64,000 nucleotides of DNA from Aphrocallistes beatrix (Eukaryota > Porifera > Hexactinellida > Sceptrulophora > Aphrocallistidae). The stretch spans positions 3,857,934-3,921,933 of the forward strand of contig OY725494.1 of assembly GCA_963281255.1 (NCBI GenBank), read 5' to 3'. The position numbers and the translations under genes are program-made. The notes under the pieces are model-generated. The model worked only from the letters and a program-made list of their open reading frames with translations, had not been told where the DNA came from and did not search any database. Below, one piece after another: positions 2,731-53,035 of this stretch (its first letter is position 1; each line of letters starts with the position of its first letter).

Positions 2731-2797
2731 TATAAATATGAGGTATTGTATTTAATTCTACTATCTCAGTAACTTATTTTTCATTAATAAAATTAGA
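2102..2797. other. Intergenic: dispersed repeat and TA microsatellite
   Basis: No coding frame is seen. About 2389-2475 is a repeat that recurs at about 47255-47340, starting with GGTTTATGTGAGAACCAATC in both. A TA-rich microsatellite lies at about 2684-2735, shortly before the next gene. Confidence 0.6.
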
Positions 2798-4081: not shown

Positions 4082-4653
4082 TGCTTTCTCCTGATACTTT
4101 TCATTATTTCTATCTAATAACATCTACGTATGTATTTTCCTTAATTCTACTCTAACTAATGTTGTAATTTGCAATGTGGCATAAAATGCACAATGATCAA
4201 TATTGTCTATATTATCTGAGTAATAGGTATGGTAAAAATGAATATTTTGAGATATAAATTCCGCGTTTGTCACAAAACTTGGAATAATTCCGGATAAAAA
4301 AGGATCCCTAATGATTTTAAACCTTCGTTTAATTATTTGGCGCTCTTTATCTTGGTTCGGTTTCGAATAGTTAACAGAAATTATTCAATTAGAACCACAA
4401 TCGAATTACAGGACTGAGTAATTGTATTATTATTTGAGACGACTGATTCATGTCAGCCAACGGTCAGATTTTATTTTACACTGCCATACGACGTTATGCA
4501 AACTCTTTTATTTTGTAAATTTTTATTTTACCGATTATACTCGCATAGTGGCCTAATTTGAAAATATTATTCCTCCTTTTGCTTCATTCCTTTGGGTTTT
4601 TTGTGTTACTACACTATTCTGTACTTCTACTACTAGCTGTTGCAGTTGTATAA
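4082..4653. other. Intergenic, nothing recognised
   Basis: AT-rich spacer between two tandem zinc-finger genes. No open frame, hairpin or repeat of note was seen. It presumably contains the 3' UTR of the upstream gene and the promoter of the gene at 4654. Confidence 0.5.
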
Positions 4654-8527: not shown

Positions 8528-9272
8528 AGCCTCTGACACTACAGCTGAAAAATAAATTATTGCCTATTATTTACTACCTAGACAGTCCTATTATGAACAG
8601 CTCGACAAATCTGGATACTGACATCTCTTTGAAATATTAACCTCGAATAATTTGATTCTGATGTGTACTGGGATTTATTTATTTGCCTTGCCCAATGTAA
8701 ATATAAATGTTCTACTACAAACCAAAGATTGGCACTAATTAACTCCCTACCTACGGTATCTGTCGTGTTTAGTTTGCATTTATCGCGAATTTGAATATGC
8801 ATATTTAGGTAGTCATGGAAATTTAGGATATTTCTCTGAGCTTGATTTGGTCGAGTGTGTTCATGGAAACCATGGAATTAATTAAACAATGCTAATATTG
8901 CACCTCGAGATCTCCTGAAATTATCGTTTATGATATTTCACCCACACAGCTTGAGTGAGAGTATTAATTAATTACTTATTATTTCTCATTTCGATTCTGA
9001 GTTGTTGTTCTTTTATTTGATCATCACATAATCGGATTTCTTAGTGTCATTTCCCTGTTGCTGTATCGTGCTTCTCTGTTCTAGGTAGAAGGTGCATGTT
9101 AGTCTTTGTCTATAAAGCCTATCAGAAATGTTACAGACACTAACTGAGAGAAATCATTGACACCCGCGCACTCGCTATATTCTTCTATGGGGTTTATATA
9201 CACTGCAATACGCATAGTTTTACATTATAGATTTTGCTTTTTATCTGTAACAAGATTGCACTATTGTACTTT
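8528..9272. other. Intergenic, nothing recognised
   Basis: AT-rich spacer. No gene, repeat family member or strong hairpin was recognised. It should include the promoter of the gene starting at 9273. Confidence 0.4.
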
Positions 9273-10349
9273 ATGGCGGACAGATATCAGGAGGGCAACC
9301 GGATTCTCTCTTCCTGTCCTCTCTGCGGTGTAGGCGTCTGTAAACTAGACAAACATTTGAATGAACTATGCTTGGCTCGTCCACTACCAGGACAAATAAT
9401 TGAGAAGGGAGTATGCCCTCACTGTCTGACTGATGTAGGAGTGGATGGCCTCAACACACATCTGATGTCTGTTTGTCAGACGTTGACAGTGCAATGTCCA
9501 TTCTGCAATGAAAGACACAGACAAATTCAACAACACCTGAATCGTCGTCACAAAAATGAACGAAATAACCCAGGTTTTACTTCTGTAAGAAAAGTTCCCA
9601 ATCCATACAAGGTTCTGAATGGGAACCTGCAAGATATTGCTGTCGACTCGATACCAGTTAGTGAAACTAAAATTAAGATTACATCCCCAGTGAAGCAGAT
9701 ATTTCCCGAAACGAATAAGGAGTCTGTAAAAGATGAGGAACGTAGTAGTGATACGGATACGCTAACACGACCACCACATGAATCCACTTTGGATACAGAT
9801 ATGCCAGATTGTTCTTATGATTTTGGTGATGAGAAAACGAAAATGATTGATCAACCTGAAAATTTCCAGGTACCAAAGAACAACTCCAGAAATCTGATAA
9901 GATGTCAACTCTGTGGTAACAGGGTGTTATTAACTAAGTTTAACCATCATGCGAATAACAAGTGCTTAGCGAGACCTCTTCCTGGCCAGTCTCTAGAACC
10001 AGGTTACTGTCCACACTGTGTTAAGCGCATAAGGGTTGATGAGATGTCAGGTCATCTGATGTATGAGTGTGCTAAGCTCACGGTGAGATGTCCGTTCTGC
10101 TATCTTCGATTTAGACAAATACGCCAACACCTCAATGGTAAACACAAGAACAAATGTCATCTTCCCGAATTTCTGAATATCACTAAGATTCCCAATCCCT
10201 TTAAGCTTCTCCGCGGCGACTGTCTGAATGTTCCTGAACCTTCTCACCCCCTTCCTGAAGTGGGCAAGCAAGTGTTTTACGAAGATAGTTCTGACAGTGG
10301 AACAGAACTGGACTATGAATCTTTCTTAATAAGACCGCCTAAAACCTAA
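9273..10349 (+). CDS. Zinc-finger protein with an internally duplicated three-finger unit
   Basis: Single-exon, 358 residues. The start is taken at ATG 9273 (MADRYQEG); the frame is open further upstream but without an ATG. Residues about 15-105 and 210-300 are two copies of one unit: C-x2-C...H-x4-C, then the conserved linker CLARPLPGQ, a second C2HC finger (CPHC...), a third C2H2 finger (CPFC...RQI.QHLN.KH), and a tail ending in IPNP(F/Y)K.L.G. An acidic, Ser/Thr-rich spacer joins them and a similar acidic tail closes the protein. It belongs with the surrounding finger genes by finger spacing and intronless structure, but its sequence forms a separate subfamily. Nucleic-acid binding is inferred only. 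Confidence 0.85.
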   Translation: MADRYQEGNRILSSCPLCGVGVCKLDKHLNELCLARPLPGQIIEKGVCPHCLTDVGVDGLNTHLMSVCQTLTVQCPFCNERHRQIQQHLNRRHKNERNNPGFTSVRKVPNPYKVLNGNLQDIAVDSIPVSETKIKITSPVKQIFPETNKESVKDEERSSDTDTLTRPPHESTLDTDMPDCSYDFGDEKTKMIDQPENFQVPKNNSRNLIRCQLCGNRVLLTKFNHHANNKCLARPLPGQSLEPGYCPHCVKRIRVDEMSGHLMYECAKLTVRCPFCYLRFRQIRQHLNGKHKNKCHLPEFLNITKIPNPFKLLRGDCLNVPEPSHPLPEVGKQVFYEDSSDSGTELDYESFLIRPPKT

Positions 10350-10512
10350 ATTTGAAGACAGTTACTGAAAATTTTCTAAAATCCGTACCGAAATAGCATT
10401 TAGTACTGACATGATATCTGATCACTGTTTCGTATCAATCTTACGATTTAGTTCATTTCCAATCATCATGCTTAACTACTACTTGTGCGATCTATTTACT
10501 TCTGTTTGATTG

Positions 10513-10562
<50 letters not shown>

Positions 10563-10831
10563 GTATATAAATGCATTCATTTAACAGTAAAATTTAATAG
10601 TTTCTAATTCTATATAAATAACGAAGATACTGCCCTTTACGAAGGAATATTAAAAAACATTGTCTTTACATCTTGCTACTCTATTTTGGTCCCGATAAAG
10701 TTATTCATGTCGCACCTTTTGATATAGTATTTGTTTGCCAATTTCAGAACAATCTACATACATCCTACATGTATGTGTAGTTATATTATTCCCGATTAGT
10801 AAATCTGAACATTTGTATTGTACTTAGCTTG
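10350..10831. other. Intergenic with (AT)n microsatellite
   Basis: The notable feature is a long AT dinucleotide run at about 10515-10562. No gene was recognised. Confidence 0.6.
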
Positions 10832-11989
10832 ATGTCATCCTTCTCCCTTACCCTATCAGCCCCCGACTCTCCTGTAATTGAGCGAGGCCACCCACGCATA
10901 TCATGTCTTGAATCTCCTCCGCCTCTTGATCATTTTTACGCTGATTCAAACTCCCAAACGAATTCCCTATCATCTGAGCATGAGGATGCAGGCTTTCTAT
11001 TCGATCCTGAGCTCCATTGTGAGAAAAACGAACATTTCACTGATGAACTAGGCAACCCACTCCCTGTTCATTTGAATTCTCCTTTGATTGAGAGGAATGT
11101 ACCTCAGAGCGCTACGTCTAGACAAGCCATTGCTGACATGAAGGGCGGAAAAAACCTTGTTCGAGTCATTAGTGCTTTGTATTCCGATTCTTTCGGATCT
11201 GACTCAAGTTCAAGTGAAGATGATCATGGTTCCAATTTTGAAGGTTACACGCCTCTCATTTCTGATGTTGAACTAATTGAGGTTAAGTATAATACCAAAC
11301 GATCTCCTATCATCCTCAGTTCTCCAAGTAACGCTTCTTCTCCATGCCGAGAGGCTGTTACAGTCCATCCTGACCTCTCTATCAGCTTTGACTGCATATC
11401 CCCCTATTCTACGGGTCAGTTTAGTTCTGGAGAAGAAGTTCCCAATGAACCGATCAGTTATTGTACTAGCAGGAACAGTTCTTACTTAAATTCAAATACT
11501 GATTTACAAACTGCCGTAGCTAATACAAACACAAGATCAATGCTAAATTCTCCCAATAGAGGAGCTGATGTTTATTCTGGCTGTTTGATGGAGGATTTAG
11601 ATTCTATCTCAAACGACGACTTTCCAATACGAACTCCTTCTCCACCATTTTCCTCCGAGATTGTTCCCCAAGAGTTTAAAGAAATTTCTTTTAAATCCAG
11701 CTCTGATTCCAATCCCACACCCTCTCCTAAACAGCAGAATCTATCCTACCTGAATAGTCTCTTCCATTTCCTCAACAAGAAGAATCCTTACTCAGGATTA
11801 GAACATGCCTCGACTATTCTTAATGGTGACAAGACTGCCTCACTGAACACTAAATCACAAAATAAATTCGCGAATACAAAGTATCCTACCTATGAAGATA
11901 TCACTCCTGTTGTTACACCACAACGCCATAAGAAAGCTCCCGGAAGTTACGAGGTTTCTCCCGCTCGGTCTGTTCTTGATATTCTCTAA
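10832..11989 (+). CDS. Ser-rich, probably disordered protein of the cluster, no zinc fingers
   Basis: Single-exon, 385 residues from ATG 10832. The whole sequence is rich in Ser, Pro, Asp and Asn, with no finger, membrane segment or signal peptide. Two short motifs near the start (PDSPVIE and a following Cys) resemble the opening of the next gene (PDSPIMEK before its first finger), which suggests common ancestry with loss of the fingers. Clusters such as SDSFGSDSSSSEDDHGS look like casein-kinase-type acidic serine stretches. Function is unknown. Clean codon structure over 386 codons argues for a real gene. Confidence 0.7.
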   Translation: MSSFSLTLSAPDSPVIERGHPRISCLESPPPLDHFYADSNSQTNSLSSEHEDAGFLFDPELHCEKNEHFTDELGNPLPVHLNSPLIERNVPQSATSRQAIADMKGGKNLVRVISALYSDSFGSDSSSSEDDHGSNFEGYTPLISDVELIEVKYNTKRSPIILSSPSNASSPCREAVTVHPDLSISFDCISPYSTGQFSSGEEVPNEPISYCTSRNSSYLNSNTDLQTAVANTNTRSMLNSPNRGADVYSGCLMEDLDSISNDDFPIRTPSPPFSSEIVPQEFKEISFKSSSDSNPTPSPKQQNLSYLNSLFHFLNKKNPYSGLEHASTILNGDKTASLNTKSQNKFANTKYPTYEDITPVVTPQRHKKAPGSYEVSPARSVLDIL

Positions 11990-12490
11990 CTCTCACTCTA
12001 ACTCAAGATTGAGAATAGTTTGATTTCGAATGTACGATTATTTAGATTTATAGTCTTGCGCGTATATAACTTAATCATATCATTAGCTTTGTTAACTAGA
12101 TTAAGTTGAATATCAGATAAATCTTTATTTTTAATTACAGAGATCTGACCGATTGTTTCTCTTTTTCTTGCGGCGTATTTTCCGGAATTTTAAGGTTTAA
12201 GTAGACGAACTCAAGTAGAATATTATAAAATTACTTTTAAAACTTAATCTAGTATAATATTAGTAATTTTTTTATATTTGGGACTTTCGAATACAAATAT
12301 TTGCCAAACCAAGGAAACTCGATTGAACTAGTACGTATTTTGCATCATTAATTTCTATCAAATTCCGAATTGGTTTATATGCCATTATTTATTTTCACTT
12401 CTTAGACTTAGCGCGTATTATCTCTCTTATTAATTGTGTTTATTCAATTTATGCTTGTAATGGATTAGTATTATATTTTTGAATCTGAAC
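11990..12490. other. Intergenic, nothing recognised
   Basis: AT-rich spacer between the disordered-protein gene and the RS-rich zinc-finger gene; no repeat or RNA gene was seen. Confidence 0.4.
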
Positions 12491-15478
12491 ATGGCAGGGT
12501 CAATCCCTATTCTCTTCGAGCCTGATAGTCCAATAATGGAAAAAAGCTGCCCTTTCTGCTGCAAATATTTCCATTTATCAGAAATTGAGACACATCTTAC
12601 ACAATGTGAATACAGTCCTACGAACAAGTTAGAACTCTCACAACTAAATCCTGTTTCTTCTTTAAAACAGGATCCCTCAGTATGGACAAGCGTAAGATCA
12701 GATGAAGAAGATGACATGACTGATGAAATGCCATTATCTGAATTTGAAAATGTAGAAGACAGTACACATGAAAGGGTAGTTCCAGTTGTTTACGACTTCA
12801 GTACATTTGATGGTTACTTTGATGCTGATAACAACTTATCTTCTCCGATTGTCCATTTGTGTCCTGAATCAGTTCTTGATGACGTCATGCGAGCTGATCC
12901 CGTAGCTACCCTGTCACTTAATACCGGCAATTTTATTGAAAGCAAAAATACTGATGCATCGTCGCCAGCTGATACTCAAAAGCAAATGGGCAAGGTTCAA
13001 GTGTCCCCAGATGCTACCCCAAGCTCACCACCTCTTCAAACCGCTCAAACACAGGAATCTAAAGAGGCTGATTCTCTTTCCAATTCCAAATGTACGGAAT
13101 CCAAAAGGAGCATCTCAATCAGGAACAAAGATCTTTCAGGCATTTCTAGTACTCTGTTGAGCCTCACCAATAGTCCTCCGTCTAACTCGCGTTCTAATGA
13201 GAAAGAAAAGTTTTCAATTAACAGCTCTTCTCACGGCGGGAAAAGATCTCGCGGAAGCAAAACTGTACCTTGCGTAGAAAACCCAGTGAAGGATGACCGT
13301 TATAGTAGCGGTTCTAGTCGCTCTAGATCCTGGTCTACTTCCCGCACGCGTACTAGGTCTCGTTCAAATTCCCGCGCTAGATATAGTCCCAGGTCTCGAA
13401 GTCTGTCTCGTTCCAGATCTCGTGAAACCTATTCATCGAGATCTTCTACGAGGTCTCGATCTAGATCCCGTTCAAGATATCGCTCAAGTTCTCGTACCAA
13501 ATATCATCCCAGATCTCGTAGATATTACAGAAGAAATTATTCAAAGTCTCGCACTAGCTCTTGTACTAGCTCTTGTACTAGCTCTCGTACTAGCTCTCGT
13601 ACTAGCTCTTGTACTAGCTCTCGTACTAGCTCTCGTACTAGCTCTTGCTCAAGCTCTTGTCCAAGATGTTACTCGAGATCTCGAGATAGTCATTACCCCC
13701 GATCCTACCGTAGGTCCTCTACTGATTCTTATACAAGCCTTGATACAAGCTGTTCTTCTAGATCACATCGTACGTCTCGTCGTAAAACGAACTCAAAATA
13801 TCGAAAAAGATATCCAAAAAATCAGGATAAATATCACCGCAGATCCTACAGTAGTTCTCCTACTAATTCTCGTACAAGGCTTAGCACCAGGTCTAGATCT
13901 CGTAATATACCGTATGACAATAAATCTTATTATGCTAACCCATTTAGTAAGTCTCGCGATGCCAGATCTCGAAGCAAATCTCCTTCACCCAACTTACCAT
14001 ATAAAAATATACCTTATACTTCAAAAGGACCCAACTCTAAAACTTGGCCTAATCCAGGAAAGGTCGACAAATCTGGTTTTTATCGACATGTCTACAATCA
14101 TTGTGATCGAAACAAATTCAGTAAATATTATGAGGCCCAATTGTGGAATCAGTCCAATCCACACGAGCTTAACACTTTACGCTCAGACACAATTCTTCCA
14201 TTACATCCGCAAAATGCTGCGGCCAAACATTTAGCTCCGCAATTAGAATATTGTTCTTATTCCCAATTAAAATATGACACAAGTGGGCAGTTACAGTTCA
14301 AAGGATTGTCCACTTTTAAGAAATCAACCAATGATAGTCCGAAACCTCGTTCTCTGTATCCAAATAACTACGTCCAGTATCCTTTCCCTTATCAGCCATA
14401 CGTTCCTAGCTCACAATCTGAAACTAATTGCCAGAGAACAGATTCAGGTATGCCTGCAAACCAATCTTCTGCAGCAGTAGTTAAAGAGATCTCTGATTCT
14501 GAAAGATTATGGCTAGCTTACCAACAGAGATATCTCTCAACTTGCATGAATGCAAAAATGGAGAAAATGGTTCAATTTCATCCCCCCAATCAGAAAATTC
14601 CTGATTTCAGGGAGTCGATCCTCCCTCCTCCTCAATTACTTCAGTCTAGCAAGAATCCCAGTTTGGATATAAATTCTAGAGAAACTTCGAATGCCACAGA
14701 AAATTCAGACTCAATACGACCTAATACAGTTGACCCTCTTCTAGAGTGTGAATCTTTAGAAGATAGGAAACCCATAATAACACCTAAATTATCTCCTACC
14801 CGTACCCCTCTTACTGCTCCAATGAATTTATCCACAGAAATTAAAATGCGGCAACCCAATTTACCACCTATGCCCACCCTCCCAGTGGAAAATCCAGCCA
14901 TTGAGTCAAATAAACCTCAAAGCCTATCAAAAATCAGAAGGACACCTCAGAAAGTTGTCGGAAAGATGGGTTTAAATTTCCAATCAAAAAAGTGCAAAAC
15001 TGTCTCTTTCGGTATTGCTAATTCCATCATCAGGACGCCACCTGTGTATCAGCCAATAGAAGGCAAATTTGTGTGCCAAATCTGTAATCTCCATGTTTCC
15101 ATCATCAGGTACAGTAAGCATTTCATGTCGCACATGAACGTAGAGTGCATCCTGTGTAGTACTAAATCTATGTCACCGTTTGCTCTGATGCCTCATCTAA
15201 TATCTGTCCATTATCCCAGGGATTCCGTACTGAAATCGTGCCCGGTTTGTGGAGACACTCACAAGAACTCTATTGCTAGCACTTCCAGACTAAACCGACA
15301 TATGCTTACGATTCATTACAACCTTTCTTGCCCCCTCTGCTCCTGTACACTGGGATTGTTTAACTTTAACATGCATGTTGATAGGTGTGCAAAGAAAATT
15401 GAAGAAAAACATCATCCATTCCTCAAGCATCGAAATCGATCAGACCAACTTCTATCCAATCTAAATATTAAAAACTGA
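12491..15478 (+). CDS. RS-rich zinc-finger protein
   Basis: Single-exon, 995 residues. ATG 12491 gives MAGSIPILFEPDSP; the frame upstream has no ATG. One C2HC finger sits at residues 17-37 (CPFCCKYF...C). Residues about 260-500 are an Arg/Ser-rich region with long RS/SR runs of the kind found in splicing factors, including a 12-bp tandem repeat coding Thr-Ser-Ser-Arg/Cys at about 13550-13650. A Tyr/Pro/Asn-rich middle follows, then four C2H2/C2HC fingers at about 865-975. RS regions normally direct proteins to nuclear speckles and are phosphorylated by SR kinases, so a role in RNA processing is plausible. It is not an orthologue of any SR protein I recognise, because no RRM is present. Confidence 0.85.
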   Translation: MAGSIPILFEPDSPIMEKSCPFCCKYFHLSEIETHLTQCEYSPTNKLELSQLNPVSSLKQDPSVWTSVRSDEEDDMTDEMPLSEFENVEDSTHERVVPVVYDFSTFDGYFDADNNLSSPIVHLCPESVLDDVMRADPVATLSLNTGNFIESKNTDASSPADTQKQMGKVQVSPDATPSSPPLQTAQTQESKEADSLSNSKCTESKRSISIRNKDLSGISSTLLSLTNSPPSNSRSNEKEKFSINSSSHGGKRSRGSKTVPCVENPVKDDRYSSGSSRSRSWSTSRTRTRSRSNSRARYSPRSRSLSRSRSRETYSSRSSTRSRSRSRSRYRSSSRTKYHPRSRRYYRRNYSKSRTSSCTSSCTSSRTSSRTSSCTSSRTSSRTSSCSSSCPRCYSRSRDSHYPRSYRRSSTDSYTSLDTSCSSRSHRTSRRKTNSKYRKRYPKNQDKYHRRSYSSSPTNSRTRLSTRSRSRNIPYDNKSYYANPFSKSRDARSRSKSPSPNLPYKNIPYTSKGPNSKTWPNPGKVDKSGFYRHVYNHCDRNKFSKYYEAQLWNQSNPHELNTLRSDTILPLHPQNAAAKHLAPQLEYCSYSQLKYDTSGQLQFKGLSTFKKSTNDSPKPRSLYPNNYVQYPFPYQPYVPSSQSETNCQRTDSGMPANQSSAAVVKEISDSERLWLAYQQRYLSTCMNAKMEKMVQFHPPNQKIPDFRESILPPPQLLQSSKNPSLDINSRETSNATENSDSIRPNTVDPLLECESLEDRKPIITPKLSPTRTPLTAPMNLSTEIKMRQPNLPPMPTLPVENPAIESNKPQSLSKIRRTPQKVVGKMGLNFQSKKCKTVSFGIANSIIRTPPVYQPIEGKFVCQICNLHVSIIRYSKHFMSHMNVECILCSTKSMSPFALMPHLISVHYPRDSVLKSCPVCGDTHKNSIASTSRLNRHMLTIHYNLSCPLCSCTLGLFNFNMHVDRCAKKIEEKHHPFLKHRNRSDQLLSNLNIKN
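13550..13655 (+). repeat. 12-bp coding minisatellite (ACTAGCTCTYGT)n
   Basis: Nine or so tandem copies of ACTAGCTC(T)(C/T)GT inside the RS region of the gene at 12491. The unit codes Thr-Ser-Ser followed by Arg (CGT) or Cys (TGT). The only recurrent difference is C to T in the CpG of the Arg codon. Confidence 0.85.
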
Positions 15479-15832
15479 AGCCATATAATATTGTATATTA
15501 TAAATTGAGTAATATTATTATAGTTTCCTTTTGTTAAATAAAGAGTTGTGTGAGATCATAGTAGAATTTGTTTTTATATTACAGAATCCCTATACAGAAC
15601 CATGCAGAAACGATGTAATACAAAATACGCGTCAATTCTTCAATTAATGAATTAGGCGCTAACTCGATCCAGTCACACAATAATTCTTACTAAACCTTGA
15701 CGATTGAATCCTGGATACATTTATTTATACCTTTCACATTTTCAATTTCCAATTTCTTTTTTTTAATCGTACTGAATTCTCGATATTTTGTGAAATATCA
15801 TTGTATCTCTAACATCTCTTTTTATTCTTCTA
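15479..15832. other. Intergenic, nothing recognised
   Basis: AT-rich spacer of 354 bp between two zinc-finger genes. AATAAA at about 15537 could be the polyadenylation signal of the upstream gene. Confidence 0.45.
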
Positions 15833-17605
15833 ATGCAACCACCATGTCCAGATCCTACTCTTTCTTCTAACATTCCAGTCAAGGCTGTTTCACAGAACAA
15901 CGACGAAAGCAAGAAGATAAAAATTGAATATTCTGACTCAGATTCTAGTGATTATGAATCTGAGTTAGAATTTTTAGGTAATAATGGATCAGACAATGTA
16001 AAGTCACCGCTAATATTTAATTTTTGTGACACAGAACAGGATGAAGTGTCTCATACAGAAAACGATCCACCAGATGTTTCTGTGGACACTGCGATCATGT
16101 CACCTCAAGGTTCAGATGCTTGTTCATATGAATCTCCAGATGCTGTCAGTATAAGTTCTTTAGATGGATTTTCAAGTTGTGAAAAAAAGGAAGAAAACAA
16201 GTTGGAGATAAATGTAAAAATTGAGAGCGAGAATGAGAATGAAAATGAGAATGAGAATGAGGAGATAGAACCCACTAAAAATGAATTTGAATTGAAGGAA
16301 GAGAGTAAAGAGCGTAATTTGCAGGAACCGAATGCTTCTTCATTGAATCCTTCTGAGCTTCCATTGTTTGTTACATCATTCGATTACAATCACAAATCAA
16401 TCAAGTTTGATGGTGTGGGTGATGTCAACGATCGAAATTCAGAATGTTGCGAAAGATCCCCGCGTAAATCTAAAATATCCTCAGGATCGACTTCCCATTC
16501 TAAGAGACGTAGCCGCAGAGCGAATCATTCCCCCAGGTCAAGAAGACACCGTTCACATTCCAGAACTAAATCTACCAGATACTCCAGACATAGAAGCAGG
16601 CACTCGCCACGTGCGAAAATCCATTCTTACTTGAGACAATACAAAACCCGTTACTTTTGGAATTATCCCTACACAAGCTTTATCCCAGGCACATTTTACA
16701 GACCATATCAATTGGGATATGCAAGAAACGAAGATAATATGCACCCACCAAAGGCTACAAAGGCCAACGAGTTAGAAGAAGGCCCAGTTACAAGCAACTC
16801 CGAAAAAAAATGTGTCAAAACTGAAGGAGTGGAGGGATCTGTTAAATCTCCTGATAGCACATTAACTAATACTAGTACCCCATCATCCAAAATGATAGTA
16901 GACGCTTACAAATGCCCCGAATGTCCTTACACTGCCACTCTCAAAGGAGTGATTACCCATTACGGCTACAGGCACTTCACTATCCAATGCCCGAGCTGTG
17001 ATACCTATGTGGAAGAGCCGTTCTTTCTGCATCACTGCAAACACTGCCGCACCTCCAAACCCAAGCTTAAATGTCCCAACTGTCCACTGAGCTGCACTGG
17101 CGCCTCTCTCCTCTCTCTTGCTATGCACATCATGTGCACACACCCGACTAAGAAGTGCGTAGCCTGTGAAGACGAATTCATCCCGCATAAGTTCTTAGAA
17201 CATGCCAAGGTTTGCTTTTTCGGTCCGAAACACAGGTATGTCTGTCCCTTTTGTGAATGCTCGATTGCAGCTACCAAACTCACAGAGCACGTGGTTAGCC
17301 ATCCCATCAGTGAGTGCCCTCTCTGCTTTTCAGATATTTGTTACCATGATGCAGAAGAACACATGAAATCTTGCTATTTAGAGAAGGTAAATGACAGCGA
17401 AGAATCGTTCTCTGGCTCTGTTTTCAACTGTCCTTTATGCCAGCACAGGTTATCTTTTGAGAACATGTCCCATCATATCGCGTTGAAACACCTCACCCTA
17501 AACTGTGTTTTCTGTTATGTAGCCATGTCTCATGAGCAGATGCGTGAGCATGTGCTGCTCTGTTGCCAACAGCATCAGAACAGTAGCGATAACACCAAGG
17601 AGTGA
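15833..17605 (+). CDS. Acidic, RS-containing zinc-finger protein
   Basis: Single-exon, 590 residues from ATG 15833. Residues 1-150 are acidic and Ser-rich, with a run of Glu-Asn coded by GAGAAT-like hexamers at about 16227-16265. Residues about 205-265 are rich in Arg, Ser and His, like the RS region of the gene before it. From about residue 360 there are at least eight fingers: CPECPYTATLKGVITHYGYRH and then further C-x2-C...H-x3-5-H/C units with short linkers. The third quarter of the coding sequence is visibly more GC-rich than the flanking genes. Domain order (acidic, RS, fingers) repeats that of the 12491 gene. Nuclear RNA- or DNA-binding is inferred. Confidence 0.85.
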   Translation: MQPPCPDPTLSSNIPVKAVSQNNDESKKIKIEYSDSDSSDYESELEFLGNNGSDNVKSPLIFNFCDTEQDEVSHTENDPPDVSVDTAIMSPQGSDACSYESPDAVSISSLDGFSSCEKKEENKLEINVKIESENENENENENEEIEPTKNEFELKEESKERNLQEPNASSLNPSELPLFVTSFDYNHKSIKFDGVGDVNDRNSECCERSPRKSKISSGSTSHSKRRSRRANHSPRSRRHRSHSRTKSTRYSRHRSRHSPRAKIHSYLRQYKTRYFWNYPYTSFIPGTFYRPYQLGYARNEDNMHPPKATKANELEEGPVTSNSEKKCVKTEGVEGSVKSPDSTLTNTSTPSSKMIVDAYKCPECPYTATLKGVITHYGYRHFTIQCPSCDTYVEEPFFLHHCKHCRTSKPKLKCPNCPLSCTGASLLSLAMHIMCTHPTKKCVACEDEFIPHKFLEHAKVCFFGPKHRYVCPFCECSIAATKLTEHVVSHPISECPLCFSDICYHDAEEHMKSCYLEKVNDSEESFSGSVFNCPLCQHRLSFENMSHHIALKHLTLNCVFCYVAMSHEQMREHVLLCCQQHQNSSDNTKE

Positions 17606-42508: not shown

Positions 42509-45500
42509 ATGAAGTTGTCAAGTGAGATGGAAGTTGGAAAGTTCTTGTTTCTTTTGCTGTTTTTTCATGTTCGATTCTTCACTTACGGACAGAGTACTTC
42601 CCATTTGTTTAGACCCACTTCTACTTTAAGATCGGGTGTGGTTGGAATTTCCAGCTTACCTCTACCCCCCCATCTCCAATCTACCCCCTCTTCTACTTCT
42701 ATCCGCACTACGATCCCAGTCATCGCGACAAGCTCTCCGATTGCTATCACTCCCTCCTCCCCGGCAACCTCGTCATCTTATCTCCCTCTCCCCACTTCCA
42801 CACCTACGATACCCCCTCCGACCATATCACTGAATATCAGTGTGCAAATACCGAAGTATGTATTTGAAAGAGAAGAAGTGACATTCACATGTTCGGTAGA
42901 GCCGAGTAAGAACGTGACATTCAGCTGGCACAGCAGTGACATGATCGTTCTAGCGAACACCTCCAACTTCACTACAATTCTGCCTGGCTACTTCGCCAGT
43001 TCCTCACTGCTCTACTGCTGCCAAGTCAGCAATTTTTGGTTTCAGGTTTCGGACACTGTGTGTGACATGGCACCGGTGATTCTAAGCATTAGCTCTGTCA
43101 CGATCCTTTCCACAGAACAGACAGGGGGCACGCCTACATTATTACGGTGTGTCGCGTTCTCTAGTGACACCTCTATGAATCTGAATATCAGCTACTTTTG
43201 GGAGTACATGGGGAATTCTGGAGATGTAGAGCTGATTCAATCTGTTAGTTAATGTGAAGGTTTACTACGTGGATCTCAATACTAATCTTCTTTCCATTCT
43301 GTTACAGGACAGCAGGTACAGTTTGAGTTCAGATAACAGAAATTTCACCATCACGTCTCGTTCCATTACTTTGTCGGGTCGGTACTACTGTTCGGCCTAT
43401 TTCACCGGTCACGTCCAAACAACTCGCAATCTCTCCGAGATTGTACAGCAGTTTTCCTTCCCTGTTCTCCAGCTTTCAACCATGCAGCCTTGTAGCACGG
43501 ACTACCAACTGAGAGTTGAGGTCGGGGCTAGGCTAGAAGTGGAGTGCAGTGGGACAGGCTACGAGATCCCTGATCTCTCCTGGCTAGTTGACGGAGTGAG
43601 CCCCGCCAGTGCAAATGTTGTATCCGGTCCCCGGACCAACCCGTGTAAGTTTAGGCAAACTGTGTTTCAATATCTTTAAACTCAACCATTACAATTGTCT
43701 CTAGCTACGCCTAACGGATACGTGACTGAAGTAGGGCATACATCCATATCGATTTCCATCGACAAAGTTGAGGCTCCTATCCACACACTGGAATGCGTGG
43801 GAACAAACAATTTATTTAGAAGTGTGACATGTTCTGTGAATGTGTTTGTGGTGTCTGCCCCCTGCGTACCCCAGAGTTTGCGAGTGAGTCGGTTAGGAGA
43901 GAGCTGGGCGGCAGTAGAATGGTCCAACGGGAGGACATGCTTGTTTGGGGAACAAGATGTGGATGTGTTTACCCTGAAGCTGAGAGAGCCAAGCGGCCTA
44001 CTTCTCGCTACTTTTGTCTTCTCTGTTACCTCCCAGAGCTCGCAATACAGCTATAACATCACCGAACTAGCTTCTGATTCATTCTACGAGGTTAGAGCTA
44101 ATTGAGGAGAAGTCAATTACACAATATTGTGTTATGTCTATCACGAACAGAAATACGCTGTATTAATCATGCATAAGAATGCCATTCATATTCGTAGGTA
44201 GATGTCTCAGGAGGGAATGCACAGGGAACTAGCAGCTCCAGCGATGTAATCATACTGCACACTCTCGCGCCTTCTGACACTAACATCATTATGTTCCCAT
44301 TCGGTGCCCTTCCTGGAGACTCTCTCGTGCCACACGGTACCTATGCCCAATCCCTGCCCATCAACCTACCGCATCCGGTGCCGATAGGGAACCGACTCTC
44401 CTCTACGCTCTACCTCTCCCCACTCGGCGTCCTCTCCTTTGACCGTCCTTTCCACTACTGGGATGTCCAGCAGTTAGGAGTAGGGTCTATTCTACAAGGT
44501 AAGAATTAGGTTTGAATATAATACGCATAATATTCAATTTTATTGAAATTGGAAGTTACTATGATGTACCAACTATAATGAACAATGGATTTAGGTGCTA
44601 ATATTCTAATTGCTTGCATGTAGTGTACAGCAATGCATAGCTCTACATAACCATTGCTTTCTTGTATGTTCTGAATTCCAGATGTCTCTATCTTGGCTCC
44701 CTTCTGGTCGGACATAGACTACTCGTCTCAAGGCAGTCTCTTCTACAACCTCTACTCTAACTCCACCCCCGCTCACTCCCAAATCCTGTCCAACGCCACA
44801 CAGCTAACCACACAGTACGCTAACGCTCCCAGCGATTTCAGAGCTGCCACTCTCTTAGTGGCCACCTGGTCACGCGTACTGCCGTATTCTGGCGCTCAAA
44901 ACCAGCTATTGCAGGAGAACTCCTTCCAGCTGGGACTGGCGGCGGACCACTCTTCCTCCTACGTCTTGTTCGGGTACAAGCGAGATGACGTGAGCTGGTC
45001 TGCTACGGAGCAGGTGAGCTCAGCTCTGATTGGATTCTCTGCTGCCTCTCTCCTCTCAGAGACGCACCCTCTCTCCCTCACCCCCGACGCTCACGAGATA
45101 GATTCCAGCGGTGGGTATACATTGCATCGGATTCAGTCACTGCAATCTTATCTCTAACCAGAATGAATGTTTCACATAGGTGGAAGAAATCTGACTGTTA
45201 TCGGCTACAACATCAGCTATTCCGCTGACGAGATAGACGCAGCTCAATCAGAGTGTGACTCTTGGTCAAGGCACACCTCTACCCTCCAGGTGTACGCCCC
45301 ATCATGTCCTTGCACTCTCCTGCAGGCTAGACTTGATGCCAGATTCTCTCTTGATCGAGTTACGCCTGACATCCCAGAATATACAGAATGTTACATCTCC
45401 TTATTCAGACTTATTGGGCCTAACCAGAGGTAAGTGTATACTAAAGCTACAACTAAACACATACACATACATGACTGTTATTCTGTTGGCTCCATTAGAT

Positions 45501-48500
45501 GCTGCTATACAACGCGGCTACAGACAGTTATTACAGGCGGTATATTCCGCGGAAGTGCGCTACAGACTAATCCTGCCACGTCAGCGGTTCCCTATCTGTC
45601 AGGAGAGTACAGAGGGTACAGGAGCTGTTGCATCCAATCTGATTCCTGCGAGAAGTACTTTGCAGTTAGGATCAGTGACAACTGCACTCTCTACCAAGCC
45701 CCTGGGTTCGCTTGGGGGTTTGGACTCTCTCACTTGATCACACCAGATGAGAATGAGCTCGTATTCAACGGACTAGGTATGGATTGTAGGTAAAGGAGAA
45801 TCATCTATATTTCCATGCTAGATCTGAGTTGTTAGTTAGTGTCTTGAATACATTGTTACAGGAGAGTACGTGCTGTTGGAGGGGACTCTCCCATGTCCGA
45901 TACAGCTACAAGCTCGCACGGAACAGTACCCGGGGACCAATGCGACATTCTTCTCAGCTCTCGCCTTCTCGGAATCTAACTGCAGCTCTCTGCTGTTCTT
46001 CAGTCTGAGCTCTGATCGGACTCAACTCAAGGTTTACTTCAACGGCAATGACGTCACGGCTAGCGTTAGAGCACACGATATATTGGAACAGTGTGTCGTG
46101 CTATCCAATAGGATGGATGTAAGTACAATATTAGTGTACCTCCCTAGAGTATGGACTATGCACGAGTGTAATATGGTTTATGATTTACTATAGGCGATAC
46201 TGGTACGTTTCCAATCTGGATTCTCTCTCGCCGCTTGGGCAGAGAACAGAGTCCTCAACTTCAACCTGTCCCTCCCCCGCAACACCTGCTACCTGCGGAC
46301 GGCCGGGCTGCTGGGGCGGTGGGACGGAGAGGAGAATGGTCTGCTGCTACGCAACGGTACACTGCTGTCTCGTAACGCGAGTGATGAGATCAAGGAGTCG
46401 TTCTTCCAGTCGTGGAGGCTACGGGAAGATGAGAGCTTGATGCGGTATGGTGCTGCTAACTATTCAGCATACAAGTGAGTGCCAGAAACGATTCTAACCC
46501 ACTATAATATCCTACTCAATCTACACAATGCACTAAACAGCCTTTTCGTCTAGTCCCACTGAATATGAAGTGTCGCTATTCGCGAGTGATCTGTTCGCTA
46601 GCGGCATTCCTCAGGAAGTAGATGAGCAATGCAGCAGCAAGAGAGTTTGTCTCTTCGATCAGCTGGTGACAGGAAGCGCAGTCCTCGCCAACTCAAGCAG
46701 AGACCTTGCTATAGCTAGTTTTACAGCATTGCAAGAAATAAGTGAGTATCCATCACTACCAATGTGAACTTGTGGTGTGTAGTGAATTACTGATGTTTCC
46801 CATTTTAGTAATAATGGCTACTTCAAAAGTTTTGAAATATGAAGATTTCTTTTATTGTGTTGGTGCCAGAGGGCTGGGGCCTTATTCACTAACAAAACTT
46901 AAGATTTACTTAACTTTTGAATCTTCAAAATTAGAAGATAGTATTTTTAAAGAATTCAAATAGATTGCATCTTATATATTAAAACTCTAGGATTTGTTTG
47001 TTTGTCCGAATTGATTGAAGAATTGGCAAGTCGTAGAGATACGAAAATTGGCATGTAGGTGTCAAATGATGAATCTAGGATTAAGTTCGAAGATCTAAGC
47101 GAAATGTTCGCACCTCGCTGAGATAGGTGACAAAATGTGCTGACCAATCAAATTCGATTATTTTATAATGCAAATACATTGAAATAAAATGGTAGTGACT
47201 TATGCATACAATCAAAAGGACTATTTGTGATTGAAATTCATTGGTTTATGTGAGAACCAATCAATTATCAGCCTTTTATAATGCCATTCACACGATTCTA
47301 TTTCATATAAATGATTGAATAATTTGATTGTTAACAACAATTATTCTGCTACAGTTCTGATTTCATAAATGTAACCGTAGACAAATGACAATCCAGCGTA
47401 CTTAGTATAAAACAGGAAAGCGACGTATTGTTTCTCTAATATCCGCAAGCGCCCACTGGGGAAATCTGCAGACACGTAGTGTCTGCAAGCCGCGCAGCGC
47501 GCTTGAATAATTATATAATAATTATATAATAATTATATAATAATTTTAAAATAATTAATTATATAATTATTATATAATTATTATAAAATAATCTTATATA
47601 TTAAAATGCTAGGATTTGTTTGTTTGTTTGTTTGTGTCCGAATTGATTGAAGAATTAGCAAGTCGTAGAGATATGAAAATTGGCATGCAGGTGTCAAATG
47701 ATGAATCTAGGATTAAGTTCGAAAATCTAAGCGAAATTTTCACACCTCTGCAAACAAAATGGAAGACAAAATTTCACACCTTTTCAATACAAAATAAATG
47801 ACTACACTATCACAATAGAAACCATTGTACGACACTACAATAGATCGTCATTGTTATTAATATTTCAAAGCCACAACTTATGTTTGATATCTTAAATATA
47901 TTATAGTATTTGGCAATAAAAAAGATTATCTGCATATTTTCACACCTTTATATACATATTTTCACAACATTTGATGAATTTTGAAAATAATGCTAGAGAC
48001 TAGCTTCCAACGGGTGACATGGGGTTTTTAGGGGTGTAGATTTCGAATATCATATTTTCAGATCTATATGATAAATTATTTGTTTACTTTTGTTTACATT
48101 AGATACATAAAGTAAACAAATCTCAAAAATATGCTATAAACTTGCTTTCAACGGTTGACATGGGGTTTTCAGGGGTGTAGATTTCGAATATCATATTTTC
48201 GAGTAAATTTGATGATCAATTTGTTTACTTTTGTTTACAATAGATACATAAAGTAAACAAATCTCAAAAATATGCTAGAAACTAGCTTCCAATGGTTGAC
48301 ATGGGGTTTTCAGGGGTGTAGATTTCGAATATCATATTTTCGAGTAAATTTGATGATCAATTTGTTTACTTTTGTTTACAATAGATACATAAAGTAAACA
48401 AATTACAAAAATAGGCTATATACTAGCTTCCAACGGTTGACATGTAGTTTTTAGGGGTGTAGATTTCGAATATTATATTTTCGGATCCATATGAGAAATT

Positions 48501-51500
48501 TTTCGTTGACATTTGTTTAAAATATTTATGTAAAGGAAAAAATCCCAAAATATGTTAGATTGAGTAACTCCAGGCACCCGCAGGGCGACTCTGCGGACAC
48601 GCAGTGTCCGCAAGCCGCGCAGCGCAAGCAAGCGAAGCGTGCTTGTTTTATATATTAAAATGCTAGGATTTTTTTTTGTTTTTTTTGTTTGTTTGTCCGA
48701 ATTGATTGAAGAATTGGCAAGTCGTAGAGATACGAAAATTGGCATGTAGGTGTCAAATGATGAATCTAGGATTAGGTTCGAAGATCTAAGCGAAATGTTC
48801 ACACCTCGCCGAGATAGGTGACAAAGGTGACAGCGCAAGCAAGCGAAGCGCGCTTGTACTCTATTAATTTTAAGTGGTACAATTGAAATGCTTGACAAAT
48901 TTTGACTCATTTGTTAAACTTTTCAGAAAGTTACGTAATATTTTAAGTTAAGTATGACGTCATAATACTTAAGTATGACATCACGAATATTTCGAGAGTG
49001 ACTTGGAATATTTCCAGTATTTAGGTAGTTTATATTTCTATTGGTATCATTGAACATCTATTTACCCAAATCGTAATGCAACTCTTCAAAATTTCCACTA
49101 TATAAAGTTATATAAAGTTAAGCAAATCTTAAGTTTTCTTAGTGAATAAGGCCTGTTGCGTAGATCTCCCTAGAGTAGGATCAGCATGCCCCCTTACAAA
49201 AATTCCTAGAAAAATCCCTGTTGATTACGTCTGGTGTTTATTTGTGTAGATGCGCTCCCTCCCATTCTATCTGGTTCCCCCAGACTGATAATCCACTCAG
49301 GGGATCAGTTCTCCTATTCCCTCTCTCCCAACAACCCATCTCCACACTCCCTCATGCTCTCCTCCTTCTCTCCTCTCAGAAACACCCCCCTCACCTTCTC
49401 AGAAGACGCCTATCTCTTCCAAGGCTTGCTGAGTCAGGATATCGGAGAGTTTGCCATTACGCTATCTGCTCGTGACGTCACGACTGGACTAACCAGGGAT
49501 TATTCTCCTACCATCTTCTACTGCCTCTGCCACCCGCTAGAATGCTCACTATCTCCTGCTATGCAGGAGGAGTCAGGATTGAGGTTCTATAATCTGAGCT
49601 GCGGGTGTGAGAAGGGGTTCAATATCACACAAGGACACATTTGCATCTCAAGTGAGTGCGTACATAAGAAATGTCAGCTATCAGAAAAATATATAGAATT
49701 AGAGCATTTATGATGAAAATATTATGATTGGATGCTTATTAGGTCCTGAGTGTGTGATTGAGTTGGACATGTACTTCGTGTTCGATGGGATTGTCAGTAT
49801 GGGACAGTCGTTGGATGAAGAATTGAGCTTTGTTGCGAGCATGATGGAGAGATTCATCTACCCCCCGAACACAGTTGAGAACAGAGTCGGTTACCTGGTG
49901 TTCTCTACGAGTATTGACAAATATCAAACTCTCTCTACAGACATCAGCTCAGTGATTTCAAGCTTAAACTCGATTCCTTTTTCCGCCGGATTAGCCAACC
50001 TCTCACTGCCTCTAGACTACATGCTGGAACAGGTTTACACGAGTAGAGTTCTCACAGAGTCGCTCATCGTCTACGTGACAGATGAGCTGGGGAGTAATGA
50101 CCTTGTGGATGTTCTGATGCGACTTAGCGAGCAGCTGGGCAGGGAAAGAGGTGTGAGAATCTTGGTTATAGGGTTTGGAAATAGTCTTGATGCTTCAAAG
50201 TTACGCGCTATAGCTACTGAACCAGATGACAAGAACTATCTGGCCTTCAGTTCCCTCTCACAGGCACAGCTTAATCTCACAGACATCACACAGGCTATTT
50301 GCCAAATAGGTTTGTTTGGGATTATAGAAACATCTTCCATTTTAAGCGAATCATTTTACTCAGTTGCTATCAATTTATTTTTAATCCTAGCATATTCTCG
50401 GTAGTTACTCTTCCTACTACTCCCTTCACTACCCACACGCCGTCTCCGTCTACGGGATCTACTCCAAGAGGACCTGTAACCGCGGGCAGTACCCCGACAG
50501 CTCCAACCCTCCCTCCCTCACCACCTCCCACACTCTGCCTGGTGACTCTAAAGTTCAGTCTCTCCTACTCAACGCTGCTCTCTCTCACGCAGAATGACAT
50601 CCCCGGGTTCCTAGCTTCCATCGTCCGCGGACTGGACAGCAAGGTGCCTGTTGGGACCATTTCTATCGCGGGAGGAACGATTGGGGTCAGCTTCAGGGTT
50701 GACAAGAATGAAGTGGATCCTGCTGAGGTTAAATCAAAACTGAATTCTCAACTCGGTATCTTGTCTCCGTATCTGGCTGATGTTATCGTGACAGGTAGGT
50801 GCATTCCGTCCAGAGTCAATTTTAATACCATCCTCTACGAGTGTGATCAACCCCTATAGACTACTCCTCCCTTGGAGTTCTTGTTCCCGGGCTAGCCGTC
50901 TACCTCTTCTCCTACGTCATTCCAGTCCTGACCTTCTCTCTCACCACCTTCCTGCTGTACATCCACTTTCAGTGCAGAGTGTTCCAGAGAGGAAAGCTGC
51001 CTCGCGTGAAGGAGGTGAAGGCTGGGGAGAGTGAGACGGAGGACAGTTCTGAATTGAGGGATGAGGTAGCTTCTGTGCTGGAGGGTGAGAGGAGAGTTCG
51101 GATTACGAGACCCGGTACCATCATACCTTCCAACAGGTTAACAGCAACCTTACAACATCCATTTTTAAAAATTTTAACTATAACTGACATCAGATCAAGT
51201 GGTTAAGTTATTGTCATTACCTCGCAGCATTGCAGTTGAGATTGGTGCGGACAGAGCTGGCAGTGAGTCCATGAGCTACTATGGAATGTCAAGTGTCAGT
51301 GAGATTCCACTTTTCAAACCCAAAGCCCGCATCATGTCGCGCCCCCTCTCCCCTGATCAGATCAGTGACCTGCTCGCTGAGTCCCCTCCCTACACCATAC
51401 ACCTCGAGTTTGATGCTCTCCCCATGAACAGCGTATCAGGTGAGGAATAGAAGAAATACTTTCTAGGTGTTTGCAAGCTGAGTTGAAGGAGACTGGATAT

Positions 51501-52902
51501 TTTGATCAGAAAACATGTAGAATTTTGATCTGAAAACCAATGTAGAACTTTGATCAGGAATGTGGAATTTCAATACTAATTAAAATGCAAATTCAACATT
51601 TCTGATCAAAGTTTTACATTGGTTTTCTGATCAAAATTCTACATATTTTCTGATCAAAATATGCAGTCTCGTTGAAGGTATGCGATCTCCTAGTGGATGA
51701 AACACCTCCTGGAACCGAGTCTAAAAACCGCTACCCCAACGTGTTGGCTCCCCCGCACAGCCGAGTTCCTCTCTTCCTGAAATACAACCAGCCCACCTCC
51801 GACTACATCAACGCTAACTTCATCCGAGGCTACAACATGATGAGTCGCGCTTATATCGCCACTCAGGGACCTCTGTACAATACCATGGATGACTTCTGGA
51901 GGATGATTTGGTAATTCGCTAATCCCTACTATTAATACTTAACGGATACTGTACTAATTATTTGAATCGGTTTCTAGCCAGATCTATTACGAAATTCCGT
52001 AAAATACGCGTGACCGCTAAATCTTAAAAATATTCTACTTAAAAATCGCCGGCATTCTATTAAGACGCAATGGTTGCGAATACTCGTATCAAGTTCGCGC
52101 TTTTTAACTGGAAACTCGCATATAATATCGTGTCACATATCTCCATGCAGGGAACAGCGATGCGAAGTGATTGTGATGCTGACGGAGTTGGTGGAGCGAG
52201 GAAGACATAAATGCATCCACTACTGGCCAGACATGGAGCTCTCTCCCTCCTCTCTTTCAGGAGACTTGGAGATAACTCCCATAGATAAGGACTACAAGTC
52301 TGCCTACATATTGTCAAGATTCAAACTCAAACTCAGAAAAGATTCTGAAGTGAGGATCCGAAAGTTTTTAGATCTTGTAACTTGTGGTAGAGATTTAATC
52401 CTTTGTCGTTTCTCCTGAATTGAATTATTCGCGATGGCTACTCTTTTTTTAGAATAAAGAAGTTCGAGAGGTGGTCCACTTCTGGTTCAAACAGTGGCCT
52501 GACTACGGAATCCCAGAGACCGGAATCCCCATGATCACACTTCTCCTAGACTCCAGGACCCATGCCAGGAACAGCCAGAGTCCCGTCCTCATGCACTGCT
52601 CCTCAGGTTCACAGTTACTGTCTTTAACCACAAGAGTCGCTATTCTCAGTTCAGATATTTCTAACTCTGATTTGTCTCAATTCTGATTAGGCGCAGGTCG
52701 TACTGGGGTATTTATAGCTCTGGATATCGGCATGCATGAGCTGGAGAAAAAAGGAAGGGCAGACGTCCTCAAGATCATATCTCTGATGCGCCAGGATAGG
52801 GGCGGGATGGTGCAGACCAAGGATCAGTACCTCCTCGTATACAAGACACTGCTGGCTTATTCTGACTTCTTGAAGAAGGCACAGCAACCGGATGCTGACT
52901 AG
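42509..52902 (+). CDS. Receptor-type protein tyrosine phosphatase with Ig-FN3-NIDO-AMOP-VWD-VWA ectodomain
   Basis: 19 exons, all phases consistent: 42509-43243, 43308-43644, 43705-44090, 44198-44498, 44682-45110, 45180-45429, 45499-45776, 45862-46118, 46194-46474, 46554-46741, 49250-49651, 49743-50309, 50405-50794, 50860-51114, 51194-51439, 51667-51910, 52151-52349, 52453-52606, 52691-52902. Product about 2,036 residues. Order: signal peptide (1-27); Ser/Thr/Pro mucin-like (30-110); Ig-like modules (about 112-430); FN3 (432-520); NIDO (530-725, [11 protein letters not shown]); AMOP (740-860, paired Cys, CPC and CCY); VWD (875-1085, [14 protein letters not shown]); Cys-containing module; cadherin-like (1150-1280); VWA (1285-1470); Pro/Thr linker; SEA-like (1515-1600); TM (about 1606-1638); one PTP domain (1775-2025) with [23 protein letters not shown] and HCSSGAGRTG, catalytic Cys about 1964. 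Predicted to dephosphorylate phosphotyrosine under control of an adhesive, mucin-like ectodomain. The exon 14 donor is the least certain join. Confidence 0.85.
46975..47165 (+). mobile_element. Helitron-like fragment 1
   Basis: Starts TCTTATATATTAAAACTCTA and continues with GGATTTGTTTGTTTGTCCGA, GAATTGGCAAGTCGTAGAGA and a segment through GGTGACAAAATGTGCTGACC. The same block recurs at 47588 and 48652, and on the minus strand near 62935 and 36490. The 5' TC start and the GC-rich hairpin seen at the far end of other copies suggest a non-autonomous Helitron; no Rep/helicase frame is present. Confidence 0.4.
47588..47790 (+). mobile_element. Helitron-like fragment 2
   Basis: Same start (TCTTATATATTAAAATGCTA) and body as the fragment at 46975, ending near CACACCTCTGCAAACAAAAT. 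Confidence 0.4.
47985..48540. repeat. Satellite-like array, about four monomers of roughly 125 bp
   Basis: Each monomer carries GTTGACATGGGGTTTTCAGG, GTGTAGATTTCGAATAT and an inverted TTTGTTTACTTTTGTTTA / AAGTAAACAAAT pair. Single diverged monomers lie at about 6570-6745 and, inverted, at about 62320-62590. Confidence 0.8.
48652..48860 (+). mobile_element. Helitron-like fragment 3 with GC-rich hairpin ends
   Basis: The block of 46975 recurs, flanked on both sides by GCGCAAGCAAGCGAAGC(G)CGCTTG. This palindrome-containing end is the feature most like a Helitron 3' hairpin. Confidence 0.45.
51489..51670. repeat. Long intronic hairpin, about 75-bp arms
   Basis: Left arm GAGACTGGATATTTTGATCAG onward is reverse-complementary to the sequence ending CAAAATATGCAGTCTC, with few mismatches over about 75 bp and a loop near 51560-51590. 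The right arm includes the 3' splice site of the intron (acceptor AG at 51665-51666), so the exon-16 acceptor lies in the stem. Confidence 0.8.
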
Positions 52903-53035
52903 CGATTTTATTCTTTTTTATTTGACGAATTTCATTATTTTTACTTATTTATTAAACTAGATTTTCTGTTGATATTTACCAATAATAATATCCCCTGTGT
53001 GAGGAAGGAATTGTTTCGATCGATTCGAATTAGCT

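Follow-up and report, generated by a model that had tools for sequence, protein, structure and literature searches.

A predicted receptor tyrosine phosphatase with a MUC4-like ectodomain, and its two tandem paralogues, in the glass sponge Aphrocallistes beatrix

The window analysed here is a stretch of 64,000 nucleotides from the glass sponge Aphrocallistes beatrix (assembly GCA_963281255.1, contig OY725494.1, called C8 below, positions 3,857,934 to 3,921,933 of the forward strand). An earlier note, made from the letters of the window, had proposed that positions 42509 to 52902 hold a 19-exon gene for a receptor-type protein tyrosine phosphatase (PTP), with an ectodomain of the MUC4/SUSD2/Mesh type (NIDO, AMOP and VWD domains) and a VWA domain. 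Two paralogues of this gene, A and B, were found on the same contig. To build the gene model, the three forward frames of the window were read and joined at hand-chosen GT-AG sites. The model has 19 exons and 18 introns, runs from the ATG at 42509 to the TAG at 52902, and codes for 2032 amino acids without an internal stop, so that the proposed single frame was recovered. The joined coding sequence has one stop in frame, its last codon, vs 101 and 107 in the other two frames; shuffled versions (n = 200) had a mean of 86 stops and a minimum of 65, and a chance open frame was ruled out by these counts. The G+C content was 51% in the coding sequence vs 33% in the introns. The start of exon 13 was placed at 50405, a choice of the model, because the acceptor at 50391 would break the frame. 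Seventeen introns measure 60-240 bp, and intron 10 alone is large. The predicted product is a type I membrane receptor in which a MUC4-like ectodomain is followed by one transmembrane (TM) segment and one cytoplasmic PTP domain. The features of the locus are:

42509..52902, +: whole gene, 19 exons, 2032 residues
42509..42592, +: hydrophobic N-terminus, probable signal peptide (residues 1-28), by eye on the translation
42593..42838, +: Ser/Thr/Pro-rich stretch (residues 29-110), 82 residues, 40% Ser+Thr and 18% Pro
42815..43856, +: Ig-like repeats, three Ig_3 stretches over exons 1-3 (Ig_3, 4e-10; limits of repeats 2 and 3 by eye)
43869..44251, +: FN3 domain (residues 413-504; fn3, 1.3e-5, 25.7 bits, cut-off 25)
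44405..45100, +: NIDO domain (residues 556-726; 3.9e-23)
45245..45595, +: AMOP domain (residues 752-845; 1.4e-4, 22.4 bits, under the Pfam cut-off of 25)
45716..46358, +: VWD domain (residues 886-1046; E 0.022, 15.5 bits, under the Pfam cut-off of 22.9)
45722..45733, +: GLSH (residues 888-891), at the site of the GDPH cleavage motif of A and B
46609..46704, +: MUC4-type C8-3 domain (residues 1104-1135; 5.2e-5; C8-3_MUC4, 22.9 bits, cut-off 25)
46742..49249, +: intron 10, 2508 bp, repeat-rich by eye; the matching position lies within a single exon in A and B
49250..49651, +: exon 11, possible cadherin-like remnant and Cys-rich end (alignment; profile matches not significant)
49743..50309, +: exon 12, a single phase 1-1 exon corresponding to the VWA domain (residues 1290-1456; 1.1e-13)
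50405..50535, +: second Pro/Thr/Ser-rich stretch (residues 1471-1514), 44 residues, 41% Ser+Thr and 30% Pro
50536..50794, +: membrane-proximal domain, SEA-like by eye only, no profile match
50871..50948, +: TM segment (about residues 1605-1630), hydropathy maximum at residues 1605-1625
51720..52854, +: single PTP catalytic domain (residues 1782-2017), exons 16-19 (Pfam 6.4e-73)
52495..52503, +: WPD general-acid loop (WPDYG)
52594..52707, +: P-loop HCSSGAGRTG, split across exons 18 and 19

The domains were assigned by a Pfam scan of the joined product with the family cut-offs applied, and their order is a Ser/Thr/Pro stretch, Ig, FN3, NIDO, AMOP, VWD, a MUC4-type C8-3, VWA, the TM segment and one PTP domain. 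Five families (PTP, NIDO, VWA, Ig_3 and fn3) scored above their cut-offs. The AMOP-VWD-C8-3 block could be aligned over ~360-520 residues with further AMOP/VWD genes of this genome (25-32% identity, E down to 6e-32), and with the paralogues at 35-39% identity. Because of this homology to other genes of the genome, the weak AMOP, VWD and C8-3 matches were accepted and the block is read as real, so that the NIDO-AMOP-VWD order is present in one chain, with AMOP and VWD (each below its cut-off alone) assigned by homology. Most of the ectodomain listed in the earlier note was retained in this way, namely Ig, FN3, NIDO and VWA by score and AMOP and VWD by homology, but its cadherin-like domain was not: exon 11 gave no Pfam match at E≤1 for such a domain, and the best hit, a protocadherin (E 0.06), was insignificant. 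The mucin-like character that had been claimed is visible as Ser/Thr/Pro stretches, but these are short in the window copy (82 and 44 residues); no long Ser/Thr/Pro tandem-repeat region was found there beyond the 82-residue stretch. At E≤1, no Pfam match was obtained for EGF in the window copy, for a sushi (CCP) domain in the window gene or B, or for SEA in exon 13 or B; for SEA, a genome search at E≤10 also gave none, but the control genomes were silent too, so that this search is no evidence of absence. Among solved structures (PDB), the NIDO-AMOP-VWD block had 0 matches at E≤1.

The metal-ion-dependent adhesion site (MIDAS) of integrin-type domains has the motif DxSxS...T...D. By eye, the VWA domain of the window gene has DGIVS at this place, the matching Thr is gone and the Asp is kept, which suggests that the site is damaged. 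A homologue at C8:3479442-3480011 (inside C8:3479250-3480250) is 36% identical to exon 12, has an intact DGSGS, and by eye is also a single phase 1-1 exon. It is possible that this exon is the source or the sister of the window VWA. Insertion of such a phase 1-1 exon, followed by decay of the metal site, fits these data.

All four catalytic motifs checked in the PTP domain are kept, namely KNRY, WPD, HCX5R (HCSSGAGRTG) and the Q-loop QTxDQY, and the domain follows a single-pass TM segment, as in receptor-type PTPs. The enzyme is apparently competent, as judged from these motifs, and the single PTP domain with an intact HCSSGAGRTG that had been proposed was confirmed. In A and B, KNRF and WPE are found in place of KNRY and WPD; in a PDB comparison, the D2 domains of LAR and PTPRS have KNRL and WPE. 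Such changes weaken the D2 domains of receptor PTPs. The KNRF and WPE of A and B suggest that their enzyme may be weaker. The PTP domains of A and B share 52-54% identity with that of the window gene; for other PTPs of the genome that matched over the whole domain in a single stretch, the identity is at most 42% (59 of 148 candidates were scored). In the PDB, the single-domain chains of PTPN7, PTPRR and PTPRK scored 197-201 bits, vs 188.5 and 189.9 bits for the D1 domains of PTPRS and LAR and 173.1 and 170.7 bits for their D2 domains. Since these single-domain chains outscore both D1 domains, no PTP subtype stands out. LAR and PTPRS were rejected as the nearest subtype; their chains come top only when two domains are summed.

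Searches of the genome (a 100.5-Mb assembly of 28 contigs) with the ectodomain and with the PTP domain met at two more places, both on C8:

C8:3591197-3608351, same strand as the window gene: paralogue A, 3964 residues, 18 exons, one open frame
C8:3609253-3618134, same strand as the window gene: paralogue B, 1886 residues, 18 exons, one open frame

The two lie in tandem, with the end of B ~282 kb upstream of the start of the window gene, and are 91% identical (1643 of 1809 aligned residues). In both, the order from NIDO to PTP is that of the window gene, except that EGF repeats, placed between the C8-3 domain and the TM segment, occupy the position of the VWA domain. In B, Pfam detected NIDO (1.4e-23), VWD (3.5e-9), four stretches of EGF_CA, PTP (6e-70) and C8-3_MUC4 (26.1 bits, above the cut-off of 25). 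In A, the Pfam scan covered one 1353-residue stretch near the N-terminus, and the rest was judged by its identity to B and by the NIDO and PTP matches at its place. The splice sites of A and B were sought with the phases of the window gene as a condition; the order of the parts, the open frames and the presence of GT-AG sites were not built in by this search. A and B each have one unbroken exon where the window gene has exons 10 and 11, and likewise one where it has exons 18 and 19. By eye, intron 10 contains several near-identical ~120-bp units and an AT-rich palindrome-like stretch, as if a repeat had inserted at a site that is intron-free in A and B. The GDPH cleavage motif is present in both paralogues. 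A hydrophobic N-terminus in A is followed by 40 tandem Ser/Thr/Pro-rich repeats of 46 residues, an array of 1880 residues with 30% Ser+Thr and 15% Pro, in which the 39 units compared were 95% identical to the consensus. Paralogue A is predicted from this array to be a mucin in the full sense; by eye, no long tandem-repeat mucin region was seen in B. The ratio of nonsynonymous to synonymous divergence (dN/dS) between A and B was 0.41 overall and lowest (0.25) in the PTP block. The synonymous divergence itself (dS) was very uneven: most blocks had 0.07-0.15, but the cadherin-like/EGF block had 0.009 and the TM-juxtamembrane block 1.12, a pattern suggestive of old tandem copies that underwent patchy gene conversion.

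The NIDO domain had seven matches in the genome, which were read as five genes: the window gene, A, B and two genes on contig C12. The two C12 genes are NIDO-AMOP-VWD-EGF genes, and no PTP match at E≤0.1 was obtained in the 19.5 kb and 8.5 kb that surround them. In an unrooted tree of AMOP-VWD stretches that included both of them, the window gene, A and B clustered together with a local support of 0.97. For this tree, tblastn stretches were aligned as found, giving 21 rows after removal of six loci identical to others; locus L015 had no match and the L009 stretch was too short and was dropped, one gene is represented twice (L041 and C12_1111k), and the C12_339k row joins two pieces and lacks part of the VWD. 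The three genes form a family that probably arose from one fusion followed by duplication, a single fusion before the duplication being the most parsimonious course. The ancestral form probably had both EGF and GDPH: four of the five NIDO genes have EGF (by Pfam in B and one C12 gene, by similarity in A and the second C12 gene), and GDPH occurs in A, B and the two C12 genes. The window copy appears to be derived, with GLSH instead of GDPH, a damaged VWA metal site and, probably, a VWA exon that replaced the EGF block. Since its GDPH is gone and its metal site degraded, the behaviour of MUC4, SUSD2 or an integrin I domain should not be assumed for this copy. No relatives were confirmed in viral contigs (12 pattern matches) or in bacterial and archaeal genomes (31 pattern matches), a result that is uninformative on other animals.

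Several results weigh against reading the three genes as MUC4-type receptor phosphatases. AMOP, VWD and C8-3 are all under the Pfam cut-offs in the window copy, and AMOP had no Pfam match at E≤1 in paralogue B. The phases were imposed in the splice search, so that phase agreement in A and B is not independent evidence. Between A and B, dN/dS rose to 0.70 for NIDO and to 0.96 for the cadherin-like/EGF block, where only 9 changes were counted. The ancestral fusion may have had a role other than dephosphorylation if the enzymes of A and B are weak. The window gene, A and B are also known from genomic sequence alone, and this point, together with the 2508-bp intron, favours the view that two adjacent genes of the same strand, one for a MUC4/Mesh-like adhesion protein and one for a PTP, were joined in the prediction. 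The earlier note had itself considered two transcripts separated by a stop or a polyadenylation site; there is no stop in frame and A and B share the order of parts, but AATAAA or ATTAAA motifs lie inside intron 10 (and in three other places of the searched span). However, the paralogues hold the shared parts in the same order in open frames, the frame of the window gene is maintained from exon 13 to exon 15, across the TM and juxtamembrane region, and by eye no hydrophobic start is seen in exons 11-14, while the next gene, which we take to be IFT140-like, has its apparent start only at 53035. An artefact of two transcripts is improbable, because the intron 10 site lies inside one exon in A and B, and so is an accident of annotation, because the same domain join recurs in two related genes. 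The two-gene artefact was rejected on the paralogues and is very improbable; the window gene is very probably one gene. The proposed joining of NIDO-AMOP-VWD and VWA to a TM segment and a PTP in one polypeptide was upheld by Pfam, homology and the paralogues. We conclude that the domain combination is real and unusual, and that it is broader and better supported than the earlier note knew.

The role of the phosphatase part can also be questioned. The family could consist mainly of structural or scaffold mucins in which the PTP catalyses little and serves for phosphotyrosine binding or regulation, like many D2 domains of receptor PTPs, and the WPE and KNRF of A and B, so close to the WPE and KNRL of the LAR and PTPRS D2 domains, point in this direction. 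The window copy, however, keeps KNRY, WPD, HCSSGAGRTG and the QTxDQY loop, the PTP block has the lowest dN/dS between A and B, and some natural WPE phosphatases keep activity; a scaffold role is in our judgement unlikely. Less probable still is an ectodomain that works as an immune-type or self-recognition receptor with incidental mucin features. At 21-27% identity between the window gene and A/B, the Ig repeats count among the shared extracellular domains that have diverged most, and the tandem arrangement of A and B with its conversion-like pattern would suit such a receptor, but only three copies were found in the genome, the NIDO-AMOP-VWD core is conserved, and the 40 near-identical Ser/Thr/Pro repeats of A suit a mucin better.

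Taken as a whole, the explanation that we favour, a family of mucin-type receptor phosphatases, is likely. Its proteins would stand in the sugar coat of the cell. The catalytic domain would be active by default on membrane-proximal phosphotyrosine, and the bulky ectodomain, through its ligands and its size, would set the location of the enzyme, in the way suggested for CD45. Cleavage at GDPH in A and B would separate the mucin part from the anchored phosphatase part, and the enzymes, with WPE and KNRF, would be weak phosphatases or phosphotyrosine binders, whereas the uncut window copy would be the main active enzyme. Placement of a mucin-type receptor phosphatase by its ectodomain is a tentative mechanism, possible by analogy, and the best analogy is CD45, a mucin-tipped phosphatase, which according to the accessible part of PMC6170634 is kept out of close contacts by its size. 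The step from mucin-type or septate-junction-type adhesion to tyrosine dephosphorylation, which the earlier note had put forward, is likewise a conjecture. For SUSD2, the accessible part of PMC6696261 reports that GDPH is cut between D and P, that GEPH is still cut, GDAH slightly less and GAPH much less, and that deletion of GDPH leaves the protein trapped in the endoplasmic reticulum; it also cites other work for GDPH cleavage of MUC4 and for degradation of the uncut MUC4 precursor. Since GLSH alters both D and P, the window copy is expected to remain uncut, and would therefore have to travel without cleavage.

Vertebrate MUC4 signals through partners (ERBB2), and the usual ectodomains of receptor phosphatases are of the Ig/FN3 type. 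A more doubtful extension of our proposal is that an early animal lineage made a membrane mucin with a built-in tyrosine phosphatase, so that the glycocalyx (through mucin length, GDPH cleavage and shedding) would gate phosphotyrosine signalling directly, without a separate partner such as ERBB2. After duplication, an uncleavable copy with full catalysis and cleavable copies with a weak or pseudo-phosphatase, one of them with a long mucin region, might act as a decoy/effector pair on one surface. The fusion family would mean that evolution has at least once attached a mucin ectodomain straight to an enzyme acting on phosphotyrosine. A natural test of size-based, CD45-like regulation would be on offer as well, with a mucin region in A ~9 times that of CD45RABC (about 1880 vs 202 residues). 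In addition, the three related genes differ independently in catalytic motifs, the GDPH site and mucin length.

Other observations concern the rest of the genome. Dense uninterrupted open frames, mostly of 600-1000 residues and many with two PTP domains, lie at C15:65915-276551 and C2:51758-86825, and suggest that tandem PTP genes, apparently without introns, have expanded strongly there. At C15:518445-538496 (minus strand), one open frame of 7538 residues, with repeated AMOP (9 matches) and VWD blocks, possibly codes for a giant adhesion protein. Within the window, positions 2756-17605 hold a run of long single-exon open frames rich in Cys/His zinc-finger-like motifs, some of them with SR-rich parts, which by eye look like a local tandem family. 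The fibrillar-collagen C-propeptide had one strong match (2.4e-26) and two marginal ones in the genome, and the nuclear-receptor zinc finger only two. For Wnt there were 0 matches in the genome, and the control genomes were silent too, so that absence is not shown; this result and the mere two nuclear-receptor matches would fit a glass sponge, as no Wnt genes are reported for the glass sponge Oopsacas in the accessible part of PMC10280926.

The claim that no receptor with this combination had been described agrees with our literature search, outside which most subscription papers lay: no paper was found that joins NIDO and AMOP with a (receptor) tyrosine phosphatase. In the parts of the papers that were accessible, AMOP and tyrosine phosphatase are named together only as separate genes. 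Such a receptor was not found in the accessible literature on sponges, receptor PTPs and choanoflagellates, among the matches listed, nor in the available text of a review of PTPs in cell adhesion (PMC7959691) or of a survey of cnidarian receptors (PMC8260672).

Comparison with MUC4 reveals a shared NIDO-AMOP-VWD-EGF-TM order and a Ser/Thr/Pro tandem-repeat N-terminus, all present in A together with GDPH (the AMOP and EGF of A by alignment), and a C8-3_MUC4 profile match in B. Unlike MUC4, the genes described here have added Ig and FN3 domains, and in the window copy GDPH and EGF are absent and a VWA domain is present. The likeness to SUSD2 and Mesh, which are also membrane proteins, lies in AMOP and VWD; Mesh has NIDO and a sushi domain as well, and to our knowledge neither carries an enzyme. 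We know of no NIDO-AMOP-VWD in CD45 or LAR, and the window gene is also unlike receptor PTPs in its single PTP domain. The tail of MUC4 is short, according to the accessible part of PMC4671926, whereas here the tail is a PTP. SUSD2, with its GDPH cleavage, differs by the sushi domain described in the available part of PMC6696261, which had no match in the window gene or B. The mucin4-like proteins of Actinia tenebrosa share NIDO-AMOP-VWD and extra N-terminal domains such as FN3, sometimes with SEA near the C-terminus; the word "phosphatase" occurs nowhere in the main text of PMC9080433, the part of this source that was available. CD45 (PTPRC) shares the cytoplasmic PTP after one TM segment, and its N-terminus, as described in the accessible part of PMC6170634, carries a mucin-like region and FN3 domains; that mucin-like region spans 41-202 residues, vs about 1880 in paralogue A.

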